From Pigoraptor vietnamica (lineage: Eukaryota > Opisthokonta > Filasterea): 27,721 nucleotides of DNA. The position numbers and the translations under genes are program-made. How positions within the stretch are numbered: the stretch's first letter is position 1; each line of letters opens with the position of its first letter. The stretch is from contig CALSCQ010001827.1 in NCBI GenBank assembly GCA_943704525.1, positions 1 to 27,721 on the forward strand. Reading direction: 5' to 3'. Under the pieces are notes generated by a model that had not been told where the DNA came from, searched no databases, and was given only the letters and a program-made list of their open reading frames with translations. Positions 7,311-23,701 of this stretch are shown here, in pieces.

Positions 7311-9009
7311 TCAGCCTTCCTTCGGCGGTGGGACGCTGTTTGGTTGTCGCGGCATCCTGTCGAGAGTGAGTCGACCCAGCTTGGCGTTCCTGCGAACGGA
7401 CAAATGACAGGGGCAGTCGGCAACGATTACCAGCGAAGATCGTACCAACCCCACTCACTGCTCAGCACTCTGATGTCCATTCACTCACCGGTACGCGTGG
7501 ATGAAGGCAGTCGCGGACGCCGTGAGCTCCGGCACGCCGCCCTTCTTCAGCCGACCCATTTTGAATGCGATGTGCGTGAGGACCTCCTTGATGTCGTCAG
7601 AGGGCCCGCTCATCTTGTAGAGATCCACATAGCTGCAGTGAAAACGGCCAAGGCGTTGGCGAAAAAAGAACGGCGAAAGCGCATCCCGCTCTAATGCAAG
7701 GGCGAGAAATGAATAATGTCACAACGCGAGCGAGAGAGAACGTGAACGTAATAAGTGTGTGTGTGTGGGAGTGCACGAAATTTCAAACGCGTGTGTGGCG
7801 CGTGCTATGGGTGCGAGGGTCATCACCCACTTGAACATGCCCGCCCTGTTGAGCCGGTAGAGAATGTAGTCGGCAATCATCCTGTGCCCGACCACCTCGT
7901 CCTGCATGGTGCCGATCATCGCCAGTTGCATGCCCATCTCAAACGACGCCACGCGCGGGACCATGATGCCTGCGCGGCGGGAGTCTGGTGAGCAGAACGC
8001 ACACAACACATACGCATGCACTCGCACCCCCTCCCCTTCCCGCACACACACCCATCAACACGCAAGAGAGTCTGACACAGAATACAACACGGCTCTTGCA
8101 ACGCGCAACACACCCGGCGTGTCCACCAGGTAGACCCTCGGGCTATCGCAAATCTTGATGTACTGCTTGAGCGAGCGCGTGACGCCCGGTCGGTCGCCCG
8201 TAATGGCCGCCTTGCCAGCGCCCGTGTAGATGCGCCGCAATTGGTTAATGAAGGACGACTTGCCCACATTTGGCAGGCCAATCACCATCACGCGAATTGC
8301 ATCCTCCTCGGGAAGATTCGCAATCCATCTGTCGTCGTGGTCAAATTGCGGCGCGCTGCCGTCCGCCGTAACGACCGACAGCGTGTTTGGGAGCGCAGGG
8401 GCCTTCGGACGCCGCTCCCTTATCTCGCGCACCGACGCCTTCACGTGCGCGAGGAGCGGCTTGACGCTGCGGTCGAATTGCAGCGTGCAGTCCGTGTACA
8501 TGACGTCCAAACCGCGGCTCTTGTAGTGCGCCTTGACCGGCTGAGTGCATGGTGGAGTAGTGGCACCGGGGAAAGTGGGCAAGAGTCAATTGCCGGTCGT
8601 GAGGGAGGTTAGGAAAAAAACCACAACGACAGACAGAAAGTGTCACCTCGAATGTGGACGGATTCGCGAGATCGCACTTGTTGAGCATGAGCACACGCGG
8701 CAAATGCGACGACATGGTGTCGAAAAAGTCGTTGCGGCCGGTGAAAGGTAACTGCGGAACAGTGCGACGCCGACGCTTAGGGCAACGCACACAGTGGAAA
8801 CCCCAAACCACTCCTTCCGCATCACGTGACTGGCCCAGAGTGTGTCTCCAACGCACCCGCGCATCGTGCATTTCGATGATAAAGTCCATGCGGCGTGCGA
8901 TGCGCGCCATGTCCATGGACGCCCGCTGCATGTGCATGGGATACCACTGCACGGCGCAAATGTCGCCGGGGTTGAACGCAGCGCGGAATGCGCGCGCCGC
9001 GGCCGCCAT
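7311..9009 (-). CDS. MTG1: Mitochondrial ribosome-associated GTPase 1 (YlqF/RbgA family)
   Basis: MTG1 is a circularly permuted GTPase that acts in assembly of the mitochondrial large ribosomal subunit at the inner membrane. Six exons: 9009-8857, 8751-8647, 8540-8114, 7969-7831, 7632-7489 and 7389-7311. They encode 348 aa, the normal family length. Motif order shows the permutation: G4 NKCD (residues 75-78) comes first, then G1 GLPNVGKSS (174-182), a G2-like GDRPGVT, and G3 DTPG (226-229). HDARLPFTGRN matches the conserved N-terminal block. The C-terminal helical region (MADY-like IADYILY, then YVDLYKM) is present. The N-terminus (MAAAARAFRAAF) is arginine/alanine-rich, as expected for a mitochondrial presequence. 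The stop lies 63 bp from the stop of the convergent coiled-coil gene. An internal splice choice (AA|GTGGGT at 7831) is fixed by phase. Confidence 0.96.
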
Positions 9010-9417
9010 TGTGTGTGTGTGTGTGTGTGTGTGCGTGCGTGCGTGCGTGTGTGTGTGTGTGCGTGCGTGTATGTGCGCGTTTGTGAGTGCGTGTATGTGT
9101 ATGTGTCCGTGAGTCAGAGGTGTGTCAGGCGTTTGAAACCTACCCCAACTCACTCCTCCTGGCACGCGTTACTCCCGTCACGTGCACCTAATCACGAACA
9201 CGTGCACCATGTTACCCAGTGCATGTGCACCATTACCCACCGCCGCACCCGCACACACACGCACACACACGCACACACACTGAGCAAGGACAAACGAAAA
9301 GAAAGAAGGACAAAGGAGCAGTGCGTACGAATTTCCCGTGCCTTTTCGTGTTGTCAGTGGCGAAGGCGCAGTGTGTGACGAACACTACGGCAGTCCTCCG
9401 CTGCCCACACAGTGAGA
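9010..9417. promoter_or_regulatory. Divergent 5' region of MTG1 and the ferredoxin fusion, with microsatellites
   Basis: About 400 bp between two start codons of mitochondrial genes. The MTG1 ATG is immediately preceded on its own strand by (CA)n; on the plus strand the GT/GTGC tract covers about 9009-9105. A second, shorter AC tract lies at about 9251-9280. Two CACGTG boxes are near 9180 and 9200. Shared promoter use is inferred from orientation. Confidence 0.55.
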
Positions 9418-11245
9418 ATGCTGTCCCGCGCGCTTCGTCTGCGTGTGCCGCTCTCGGCCGTGCGCCGCTTTGCGACGGCCACTTCGGAGCAGGAGCTTGC
9501 GGGATCCGTCAAGCCGTATAGCAAGCATGTCGTCGTTGCCACTGGTACGCTATTGTCTGTTTGTGGAACATATCAGCGTTGTTGCGTCTCTCCACGTTCG
9601 CCTGCCAACTACTTCTTGTGGCGTGCTGAATTGCTGAATATTAAGTAGCACGCTAATGCATGCGTGGCACCTCATTCCTCCACAGGGACGTCGAAATGGT
9701 CGCCTGAAATAGCCGAGGGCGATGCGTACATTGCCGCGCTCCAGAGGGCGCTCAAGTCGAGCGCAGAGCTGCAGGCGCGCATCACGGCAAGCGACGTCGC
9801 ATCCATGTCGTCGAGCGGGCGGGATCTCTTCGTGTTTCCGGAGAGCGTGCAGTTCCCTGCTGTGAAGGAGGCGGACTTTGCGCGGCTCGTGGGTTCGCTC
9901 GTGGGCGCGAACGGCGCTCTGACGGGGAAGAAGATTGAGGGTCGCACTCTGCTTGTGTGCACGCACGGGGAGCGCGACGAGCGATGGTGAGTGCCGCTCA
10001 GTGAATGTCTGGCCGGCTGTGTGTGAGGGCGATGTGTTACGTTGGGCTGTGCTTGCAGTTGTGACACAGTATGAATGTGTGTGACGTATGTGATGCGGTG
10101 TGCTTGTGCTCAAATATTGATTACTCTGTCCAGTGGCACTGTGGGCGGCGCCGTATATGAGCGCATCCGCGAGGAATTGGCGAAGAGGGGACTCTCGCAG
10201 TCGGTGTCCGTGTACCGCACGTCGCACGTGGGAGGACACGTCTTTGCGGGCAACGTCATCGTATATCCGGAGGGTCACTGGTGCGTTGAGGGCGCGCGTG
10301 GCACTGTGCCTCTGCTCTGGCGTGTGATCGTTTGCGAGATGCGAACGGCATGTTCTCTCCTCTGACGACATTTGCGTCATTTGCGCACATTGTGCGGCCG
10401 AGTATTTGCGTGTCCTTGCGCTGACGTCATGTGTGTGCTGTAGGTATGGTCGCGTGACTGTGGACGACGTGCCTCGGCTAATCGACTCTGTTATGGCTGG
10501 CGAAATTGCGGCGGAAAATTATCGTGGCTCTGCGAATATGACGAAGGAGGAGCAGTGCGCGGTGAGAACACCACGCGTTGCACCCGTTGCACGCGCAGCA
10601 GACGCACGCACAATCACCCGCATGCATCACAAGCATGAAAGTGCCTTCTTGTGCGGCCCCGATGGCATGACATTGGAGAGCCATGCACGTGCAAGCCAAG
10701 CCACAGACACAGCTCTTGTCCTTTGTGTCGCTCATGTGCCGTTGCTCGCCCCGCAGTGCGCCAAGAAAGCTGCGCAGGATAAGGAGGCGAAGGAGGCACA
10801 ACAGGCGTCGTCGAGTGGACAGGGCACTGGCGGCGATGCCAACGCAGCGTCCGGACAGGCGCCGAAGCAGACGCCGACGCCCGCACCGGCCGGTCCGCGG
10901 CGGCGCGCGCGCATCACGCTGACGTTCGTGGACGCGCAGGGAGGCGTGAAGACGGCGGAGGGCGTCGAGGGAGAGAACGTGATGGAGGTCGCGAAGGCCG
11001 GACGCGTGGACATTGAGGGCGCGTGCGGCGGCGCGATGGCGTGCTCGACCTGCCACGTCATCTTCCCTGCTGACGTGTACGCGCAGCTGCCTGCGCCCTC
11101 GGACGAGGAGAACGACATGTTAGACATGCTCGACGGTGAGGGCGTTTTGACGCAGACGTCGCGCCTCGGGTGCCAGATCAAGCTCACAGAGTCGCTGGAC
11201 GGCGTCAAGATTGCGCTGCCGGCAGTGCGCCCCAACTTTGAGTGA
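9418..11245 (+). CDS. Mitochondrial fusion of Apd1/Aim32-type thioredoxin-like ferredoxin and adrenodoxin-type ferredoxin
   Basis: Five exons (9418-9544, 9686-9986, 10134-10280, 10444-10561, 10757-11245) encode 393 aa. The N-terminus MLSRALRLRVPLSAVRRF is a typical mitochondrial presequence. Residues about 36-225 are a sucrase/ferredoxin-like (thioredoxin-fold) domain: C134 in CTHGERDERCG with C143 (C-x8-C), and HVGGH with H174 and H178. These match the two Cys plus two His that ligate the non-Rieske [2Fe-2S] cluster of yeast Apd1/Aim32. A Lys/Ala/Gln/Pro linker (about 232-280) follows. Residues 282-389 are an adrenodoxin-type ferredoxin with C321, C327, C330 and C370 (C-x5-C-x2-C, distal Cys in RLGCQ). 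It ends soon after RPNF, without the usual tail beyond. Two cluster types in one chain imply electron transfer or cluster chemistry in the matrix; that is inference. No stop separates the two domains. Confidence 0.9.
10562..10756 (+). other. Stop-free 195-nt intron joining the two ferredoxin halves
   Basis: The last intron (GCG|GTGAGA ... CCGCAG|TGC) is a multiple of three and has no in-frame stop. Retention would insert 65 residues between the two ferredoxin modules and give a 458-aa protein. The insert has no recognisable domain and looks intronic (CA/CG-rich), so I treat it as spliced out. Confidence 0.7.
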
Positions 11246-11471: not shown

Positions 11472-12888
11472 TCAGTCCATGCGACCCTTGAGCGTCCGGG
11501 TCGTAATCTTGTCTTTCTCGCTGTGGCGCAATGACGAGAGTGCGGGTTGGTGTGAATCACGTACATTGTCGGTCCACCGCACACAAGAAGGACTAAAGTG
11601 AGGAGACATCCAATACGGCCAATAACTGCCACCCGCACCAACGCGGCAAACACAGATACACTCACATGATGTGCACCACGGCGCCCCATCCGCTGATGGC
11701 ATCGCGGTCGACGGCATTGAGCAAGGCCTGCGAAATCGTCTCAAAGAGGTCCTCGGGTGCCTACAGAAGGGTCACGTGCCGTCAGTCCATCGCACTCATG
11801 TGCACGCACAAAGCATAGGGCAAACAACGGCAAACACGCAAAGTTATCACTCAACCACACCAAAACACACGCGTGCACGTCGCCCACATGCACCCACCAA
11901 GTCCGGCTCCCACAGCGACTCGCACATGCCGTAGAGCTGCTCTGATGCGGTCCCAATGACGACAAAGTCCTTGGTGACGTTGGGGCAACCAATAAGGTCC
12001 ATCGAGCAGATGAAGGGCTCGTGCGTCGCCGGGTCAAGGCCGGCAATCACGGGCTCGGCAAAGTACGGCCCAAAGCTGCGATGGGAGGCACTGGGCGTAA
12101 GGAGATGCCACCCACAGACAGAATAACGTCCCCCACGCGCCACTCACAAGCATAGCGTGACCACAACTAAAGTTGTTATCCATTCAACGCACGTCGCATC
12201 GGCACGTGGCCACACGCAGCATGCCACATTAGGCCACAGACAGCATGCCACACGCCGCAACAACCCACCGTTTCTCATAGAGGAGATTCGACACGACATG
12301 CATAAACGGCTTTGGGCGCATCGGGCGCTCCTCTCGCAAACGGTACATGTTGAGCTTGAACTCTAGCCTCTGGGCACTGCACAGCCACACGCACAGCAAC
12401 GCACGTAAGCGCGTGGAGGCAAAACGAGTTCTTTTACAGTCGATCTCGCGACACACACACCGCTGACAACGTCTTTCTCACAGCCCGACGACTTACATTG
12501 TCTGCACGTCCGTCGCAAGGCCAGCGAGCCCAATAAAAAGCGTGTCCTCCATCTGCAGCCATGAAATGGAGCATAAGCGCCAACGAAAACAGGAGAAGAG
12601 ATAACATGTTGTGATTGGCCAGAGATCCGCACAACACGGCGTAGACGGTGCGCGATGCCACGCAATTGTGGGCGTACCTTGAAAATCTTCTGAAAGTCCG
12701 TAGAGACGGTCTGCGCCTGGATGCCAAAGCGACGGTCGGCCGCAATGGCAACGCAGTCCTTGCCAATCATGGCAACGACGGCGCCGCCGTTGTACGCGAG
12801 AATGGACTGCGATTGGAGAAGCAGGCGGGCGTCAGGACAGCACAACACAAACACAAGGCGCAGACGTAATTGATGCAGTATTCACCAT
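11472..12888 (-). CDS. PSMB3: 20S proteasome subunit beta type-3
   Basis: A structural, non-proteolytic beta subunit of the 20S core. Seven coding exons: 12888-12886 (the ATG only), 12806-12678, 12552-12497, 12376-12269, 12075-11898, 11760-11666 and 11520-11472. They encode exactly 205 aa, the same length as human PSMB3. Diagnostic blocks are [76 protein letters not shown], and the terminal [12 protein letters not shown]. There is no N-terminal catalytic threonine and no propeptide, as expected for beta-3. The first intron starts directly after the start codon (ATG|GTGAAT). The gene is complete and looks functional. It diverges from LRRC23. Confidence 0.97.

Positions 12889-17858: not shown

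Positions 17859-23701
<5,843 letters not shown>

Follow-up and report, generated by a model that had tools for sequence, protein, structure and literature searches.

A single gene predicted to encode an Aim32-type domain fused to an adrenodoxin-type ferredoxin in one mitochondrial protein

Results

One reading frame for two ferredoxin-like domains

The window analysed here, a stretch of 27,721 bases, is the whole of contig C744 of a genome of 32.5 Mb in 1,395 contigs. On its plus strand it carries a gene whose five exons (Table 1), when joined, give a frame of 393 amino acids without an inner stop, and all four introns between them have GT-AG borders. The earlier note had claimed a single five-exon frame between 9418 and 11245, and these features bear that out. 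Elsewhere on the plus strand, a protein kinase piece and a CNH domain piece (together spanning 18213-22746) are candidates for a single gene, an arrangement found in germinal-centre-type kinases.

Table 1. Coordinates of features in the window, with the unfused Suc_Fer-like gene found elsewhere in the same genome
Feature	Position	Strand	Remarks
Ribosome-binding-type GTPase	8055-8585	minus	nearest neighbour found on one side; strand opposite to fusion gene
TG-rich simple repeat	about 9010-9110		long; upstream of fusion gene
Exon 1	9418-9544	plus	start codon, mitochondrial-type presequence (MLSRALRLRVPLSAVRRFATATS), beginning of Suc_Fer-like domain
Intron 1	9545-9685	plus	GT-AG, phase 1, 141 bases; codon score negative in all six frames
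Exon 2	9686-9986	plus	N-terminal half of Suc_Fer-like domain, first cluster Cys C134; codon of C143 split by intron 2
Intron 2	9987-10133	plus	GT-AG, phase 2, 147 bases
Exon 3	10134-10280	plus	thioredoxin-like ferredoxin half; H174 and H178 within SHVGGH
Intron 3	10281-10443	plus	GT-AG, phase 2, 163 bases
Exon 4	10444-10561	plus	end of Suc_Fer-like domain
Intron 4	10562-10756	plus	GT-AG, phase 0, 195 bases; in frame, stop-free
Exon 5	10757-11245	plus	linker (about 232-283), adrenodoxin-type ferredoxin (about 284-393; C321, C327, C330, C370), stop codon at 11243-11245
Proteasome subunit	11847-12143	minus	nearest neighbour found on other side; strand opposite to fusion gene
Protein kinase piece	18213-19151	plus	
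CNH domain piece	22093-22746	plus	
Second, unfused Suc_Fer-like gene	contig C839 (L005)	minus	Pfam E 2.8e-37 on joined model

Since the gene model is based on splice signals and homology, it has to be asked whether annotation or assembly has made one gene out of two adjacent ones. Whether or not intron 4 is included, however, the frame from 10328 to 11245 has its sole stop at 11243, so that the first domain has no separate end in that frame between 10561 and 10757. Being in frame and free of stops, intron 4 would leave the domains joined whether it is spliced or retained, retention inserting 65 residues and keeping the fusion. A stop-free intron of this kind is expected in 13% of shuffled sequences (0.13), and its in-frame codon score is -0.29. 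Four in-frame ATGs (10493, 10538, 10622 and 10667) were considered as possible starts of a second gene; the last three were tested and none begins a presequence, whilst the first, which reads MAGEIAAENYRG, is by eye not presequence-like. The nearest genes found on either side both lie on the opposite strand, and there is no N between 9000 and 11500. Two genes read as one is, on these grounds, a very improbable explanation. Codon scores, trained on genes of C839 and C197 elsewhere in the genome, rank the expected frame first among the forward frames for each exon and for the linker, and all introns are negative; the linker scores barely above zero (0.03) and the ferredoxin part reaches 0.44 in the true frame.

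The first 25 residues contain five Arg and one acidic residue, with a net charge of +4 and a hydrophobic moment of 0.48. This composition is presequence-like and fits the mitochondrial presequence that had been claimed for the protein, and we infer that the protein is likely to reside in the mitochondrial matrix. The putative presequence sits on the Suc_Fer-like half of the fusion. Both separate ferredoxin genes of this genome (C700 and C1076, described below) start Arg-rich themselves, the first exon of C700 not being joined in its model.

The N-terminal half is an Aim32-type domain

Residues 27-220 match the Pfam Suc_Fer-like family (PF06999, Apd1/Aim32) over its entire profile (1-191 of 191; E 4.4e-41), with a score of 141.5 bits that lies above the curated cut-off of 34.9. 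The domain contains the ligand candidates C134-x8-C143 and H174-VGG-H178, the latter of the form H-x-G-G-H; in the protein as a whole, Cys occurs at 134, 143, 230, 232, 321, 327, 330 and 370 and His at 37, 136, 174, 178, 191 and 331. The Aim32/Apd1 motif is given as C-x8-C-x24-75-H-x-G-G-H (PMC11138216) or as CX8CXnHX3H, with C213/C222 and H249/H253 of the yeast protein described as required for function (PMC8482512).

When compared with solved structures, the N-terminal part finds the thioredoxin-like ferredoxin domains of hydrogenase subunits (best 7t2r, E 7.6e-7) and, as a weak match by sequence, the Aquifex TLF 1m2d (E 0.0046). Two NCBIfam models of thioredoxin-like ferredoxins cover residues 150-209 (2.6e-10) and 142-217 (7.6e-10), both below their own cut-offs. 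Predicted structures cover exon 5 and one bacterial relative, and it is the AlphaFold model of that relative (pLDDT 87) which has the Aquifex thioredoxin-like [2Fe-2S] ferredoxin as its best match, at a modest E of 6.5e-4. The conserved C-terminal Trp region is absent, the fusion protein ending RPNFE behind its second domain.

Just past the Suc_Fer-like domain, a Cys-Ala-Cys pair (residues 230-232; 10556-10759 when spliced) spans the intron 4 splice. It lies outside both ligand sets and could be redox-active.

The C-terminal half is an adrenodoxin-type ferredoxin behind a linker

Pfam Fer2 (PF00111) matches residues 295-374 (E 7.2e-7) and the NCBIfam ISC ferredoxin model matches 298-377 (2.2e-15, below its own cut-off). 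Yeast Yah1 (2mjd, E 6.5e-32) is among the solved structures that match the C-terminal part, as are S. pombe Etp1 and human FDX1 and FDX2, and the predicted structure of exon 5 is a confident adrenodoxin fold with 2wlb as its best match (E 2.1e-13), followed by 3p1m and 8rmc. The putative cluster ligands follow the pattern C-x5-C-x2-C...C at C321, C327, C330 and C370. The earlier note had placed C-x8-C at 134/143, H-x3-H at 174/178 and a C-x5-C-x2-C ferredoxin at 321/327/330 with a distal C370, and had concluded that one protein holds two different [2Fe-2S] sites; all eight residues are found at exactly these positions in the translated frame, which therefore contains putative ligand sets for both. 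The last Cys is spaced C330-x39-C370, compared with x35-37 for adrenodoxin types in PMC11138216; the extra length comes from three residues inserted between the docking helix and that Cys. The linker of about 50 residues is modelled with low confidence (pLDDT about 50-70) and, to judge from this, is probably flexible or disordered.

The acidic docking helix is kept (D347 E348 E349 N350 D351 M352 L353 D354, or DEENDMLD), whilst the FDX2-specific C-terminus is absent from the fused ferredoxin, which ends LPAVRPNFE as against LPKATRNFYVDGHVPKPH in the genome's own C700 copy. In human FDX2, acidic helix F is described as binding NFS1 and also as the main contact with FDXR, the latter determined for FDX1, and the FDX2-specific C-terminus as binding NFS1. 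By its sequence, then, the fused ferredoxin looks able to accept electrons from FDXR and does not look built for the cluster-assembly complex; because the tail is missing here and a separate FDX2 with the tail is encoded on C700, it would be free for another job. Six-frame and pattern searches of this genome, which miss genes split by introns, did not detect an FDXR gene. The only protein match in the FDXR search, on C197, reads as a glutamate synthase, the surroundings of a match to the pattern GVAPDHP on C473 contain no FDXR, and two further searches gave no hit.

Both halves have unfused relatives in the same genome

The unfused Suc_Fer-like gene on C839 (Table 1) lacks a presequence and starts MGQGQST, a possible N-myristoylation start; as modelled, it also ends without the Trp. 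Because a GC donor would be needed for its first intron, the model is unsure at that edge. The gene also carries an extra Cys-rich N-terminus (CAGRCETCACGH).

There are in addition two separate genes for adrenodoxin-type ferredoxins. That on C700 (L012) is 71% identical to human FDX2, groups with it in the tree at 100/99 and has the FDX2 tail, which rules out the fused ferredoxin as this genome's FDX2, and that on C1076 (L010) groups with human FDX1 at 86/77. The fused ferredoxin itself is 52% identical to Yah1, 47% to FDX1, 44% to FDX2, 47% to the C1076 copy and 41% to the C700 copy, and forms a long branch whose placement is unsure. The tree is small, with 17 rows, and includes nine of 14 bacterial ferredoxins, the five with E values from 8e-9 to 5e-4 having been dropped; alignment A4 holds seven of these nine, omitting L054 and L059. 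With the fused ferredoxin as query, a search of the genome at E up to 1 returned only the window itself, C1076 and C700. A Fer2 search gave four more matches (C274, C1236, C1095 and C330), which are family candidates only; the window's own ferredoxin was absent from its results, which shows that such searches miss some. The claim that the two parts are normally separate proteins agrees with the unfused genes for each in this genome. Because these comprise an unfused Suc_Fer-like gene, an FDX2 orthologue and an FDX1-like gene, the fused ferredoxin is the third adrenodoxin-type copy found here and probably a dedicated one.

The C700 and C1076 genes are both interrupted at LEG/AC by a phase-1 intron, which falls in the codon of the Gly two residues ahead of the first ligand Cys; the fused ferredoxin has no intron there (window position 11012). 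A processed copy that landed behind an Aim32-type gene would fit this, as would other causes of intron loss.

Bacterial relatives are not paired with an adrenodoxin-type ferredoxin

In a search with a ferredoxin HMM built from three sequences (E up to 10, frames of 80 aa or more), none of 32 bacterial Suc_Fer-like loci showed an adrenodoxin-type ferredoxin within 6 kb, the flanks being shorter at contig ends. The same HMM recovered nine bacterial ferredoxins at E 8e-21 or better, a control that is not independent because they were found with the same alignment. At E 1e-3, seven of 20 bacterial genomes encode such a ferredoxin anywhere (six strong matches and one weak) and 13 give none; these genomes represent 20 of the 32 loci, include several metagenome bins, and in four cases come from loci without the whole motif (L026, L034, L042 and L045). 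The suggestion in the earlier note that the fusion hints at Aim32's electron partner elsewhere thus receives no support from the bacterial relatives, and because neither the loci nor most of these genomes gave an adrenodoxin-type ferredoxin, any ferredoxin link is not general to the Suc_Fer-like family.

The Suc_Fer-like motif C-x8-C...H-x-G-G-H is whole in 26 of the 32 bacterial loci, incomplete in L026, L034, L042, L043 and L044, and L045 gave no Suc_Fer-like frame. Across the 23 relatives in alignment A3, from which L019, L025, L033, L036, L037 and L042-L045 were omitted for doubtful starts, shortness or redundancy, three ligands never vary and the fourth is present in 90% or more. Two short frames (L042:5926-6270, 115 aa; L044:5926-6234, 103 aa) have C-x3-C in place of H-x3-H, like all-Cys thioredoxin-like ferredoxins. 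No neighbour cluster spanning phyla appeared among the 25 largest clusters listed, and no second Pfam domain was found in three long relative ORFs (623, 745 and 399 aa), the 697-aa ORF of L043 lying outside that scan. None of 34 pattern matches on viral contigs encodes a relative.

Discussion

The fusion suggests, short of proof, that the ferredoxin is the electron supplier of the Aim32-type domain. We consider the best explanation to be a single matrix protein in which an Aim32-type domain is tethered to its own ferredoxin, with electrons relayed by the ferredoxin from FDXR to the bis-His cluster, and we are somewhat more inclined to accept this than to doubt it. In such a relay an Aim32-type thioredoxin-like ferredoxin, bearing a bis-Cys, bis-His [2Fe-2S] cluster, would be tethered to the adrenodoxin-type ferredoxin by a flexible linker of about 50 residues. 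A NADPH-ferredoxin reductase of the FDXR/Arh1 type would dock on the acidic helix and reduce the four-Cys cluster, after which the tethered ferredoxin could swing to the Aim32-type domain and deliver single electrons to the His-ligated iron, possibly coupled to protons. From there the Aim32-type domain would reduce a target; oxidised protein thiols, suggested for yeast Aim32, are one possibility. Cluster occupancy, the direction of electron flow and the target are all our inferences.

Reduction of the Aim32-type cluster by the ferredoxin is plausible in the light of the sequence and the model, and the intact acidic helix, the missing FDX2 tail and the probably flexible linker speak for it. PMC11138216 describes the bis-His site as able to couple electron and proton transfer, and PMC8482512 reports that yeast Aim32 affects mitochondrial thiol states, its authors suggesting oxidised-cysteine repair. 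Several observations count against the relay, namely the undetected FDXR, the absence of a bacterial pairing and the x39 spacing of the last Cys. So does the second domain behind the Suc_Fer-like one: in yeast, capping the C-terminus of Apd1 blocked complementation with the cluster still bound (PMC11126956), and Aim32 cut before the conserved Trp was impaired (PMC8482512).

Electrons or signals might also run the other way, with the Aim32-type domain sensing or accepting redox signals, gating or draining the ferredoxin, or docking a third partner. The sequence does not fix the direction of electron flow, and PMC11138216 and PMC8482512 put forward a thiol-switch role for Aim32. Adrenodoxin-type ferredoxins are, however, known donors, and this makes such reverse coupling distinctly unlikely in our view. 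Bis-His thioredoxin-like clusters, at about -170 mV, belong near the top of the range of [2Fe-2S] ferredoxin potentials, and if this one does too, flow from the ferredoxin to the Aim32-type cluster would be downhill. That range is given as between -500 and -150 mV in PMC11138216.

It is also possible to regard the fusion as a shared vehicle for import and expression, the precursor being cut in the matrix within a disordered linker so that the halves act apart. A single presequence serves both halves, the linker is modelled at low confidence as disordered stretches are, and there is a precedent in fission yeast Etp1, in which a ferredoxin is fused behind a Cox15-like domain (heme A synthase) and processed after import, and whose ferredoxin part is the top fold match of ours. 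We nevertheless think this unlikely, if worth keeping in mind, as a third free ferredoxin would seem redundant because two separate ferredoxin genes already exist.

In its boldest form, the proposed relay would be a self-contained mitochondrial ferredoxin:thiol reductase, fed by FDXR, in which single electrons, each with a proton, pass to a bis-His cluster that repairs oxidised thiols, with FDX as the general donor to Aim32. This is a speculation in which we place little confidence. Were it true, the enzyme would be a mitochondrial analogue, in logic and not by descent, of chloroplast ferredoxin:thioredoxin reductase.

The Suc_Fer-like and ferredoxin families are both known, and their join is the new point. 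Stegmaier 2019 is said to be the founding Apd1/Aim32 paper. Among the literature matches listed, none reports an Aim32-type/ferredoxin fusion, which may sit unremarked in databases of eukaryotic proteomes. The class is described as 'not well understood' in function in PMC8482512, and the sources consulted name no electron donor for Aim32 or Apd1. A natural ferredoxin fusion is thus a Rosetta-stone hint to the Aim32 donor that can be tested directly, and the protein would offer an intact two-cluster relay in which the clusters are spectroscopically distinct.

Compared with known systems, the fusion shares with Aim32 and Apd1 the full PF06999 domain and the C-x8-C-xn-H-x3-H motif, and its presequence-like start is reminiscent of the presequence of mitochondrial Aim32, but it has a linker and a second ferredoxin in place of the C-terminal Trp region; no fusion of yeast Aim32 or Apd1 is described in the sources consulted. 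With Yah1, FDX1 and FDX2 it shares the adrenodoxin fold, the docking helix DEENDMLD and 44-52% identity, whereas its ferredoxin is not a separate protein, has the 3-residue insert before the last Cys and lacks the FDX2 tail; from the genome's own C700 and C1076 copies it differs in lacking their common LEG/AC intron. S. pombe Etp1 likewise has a C-terminal adrenodoxin-type ferredoxin, the solved part of which (2wlb) is a close match, and is not known to have an Aim32-type domain. If the partner in Etp1 is Cox15, ferredoxin fusions of this sort would be good guides to ferredoxin partners. The ferredoxin part of Etp1 (residues 516-618) has been used alone (PMC6123783), a Yah1-Arh1 fusion is mentioned instead of a Cox15 partner (PMC7140478), and Yah1 serves Cox15 in budding yeast (PMC7140478).
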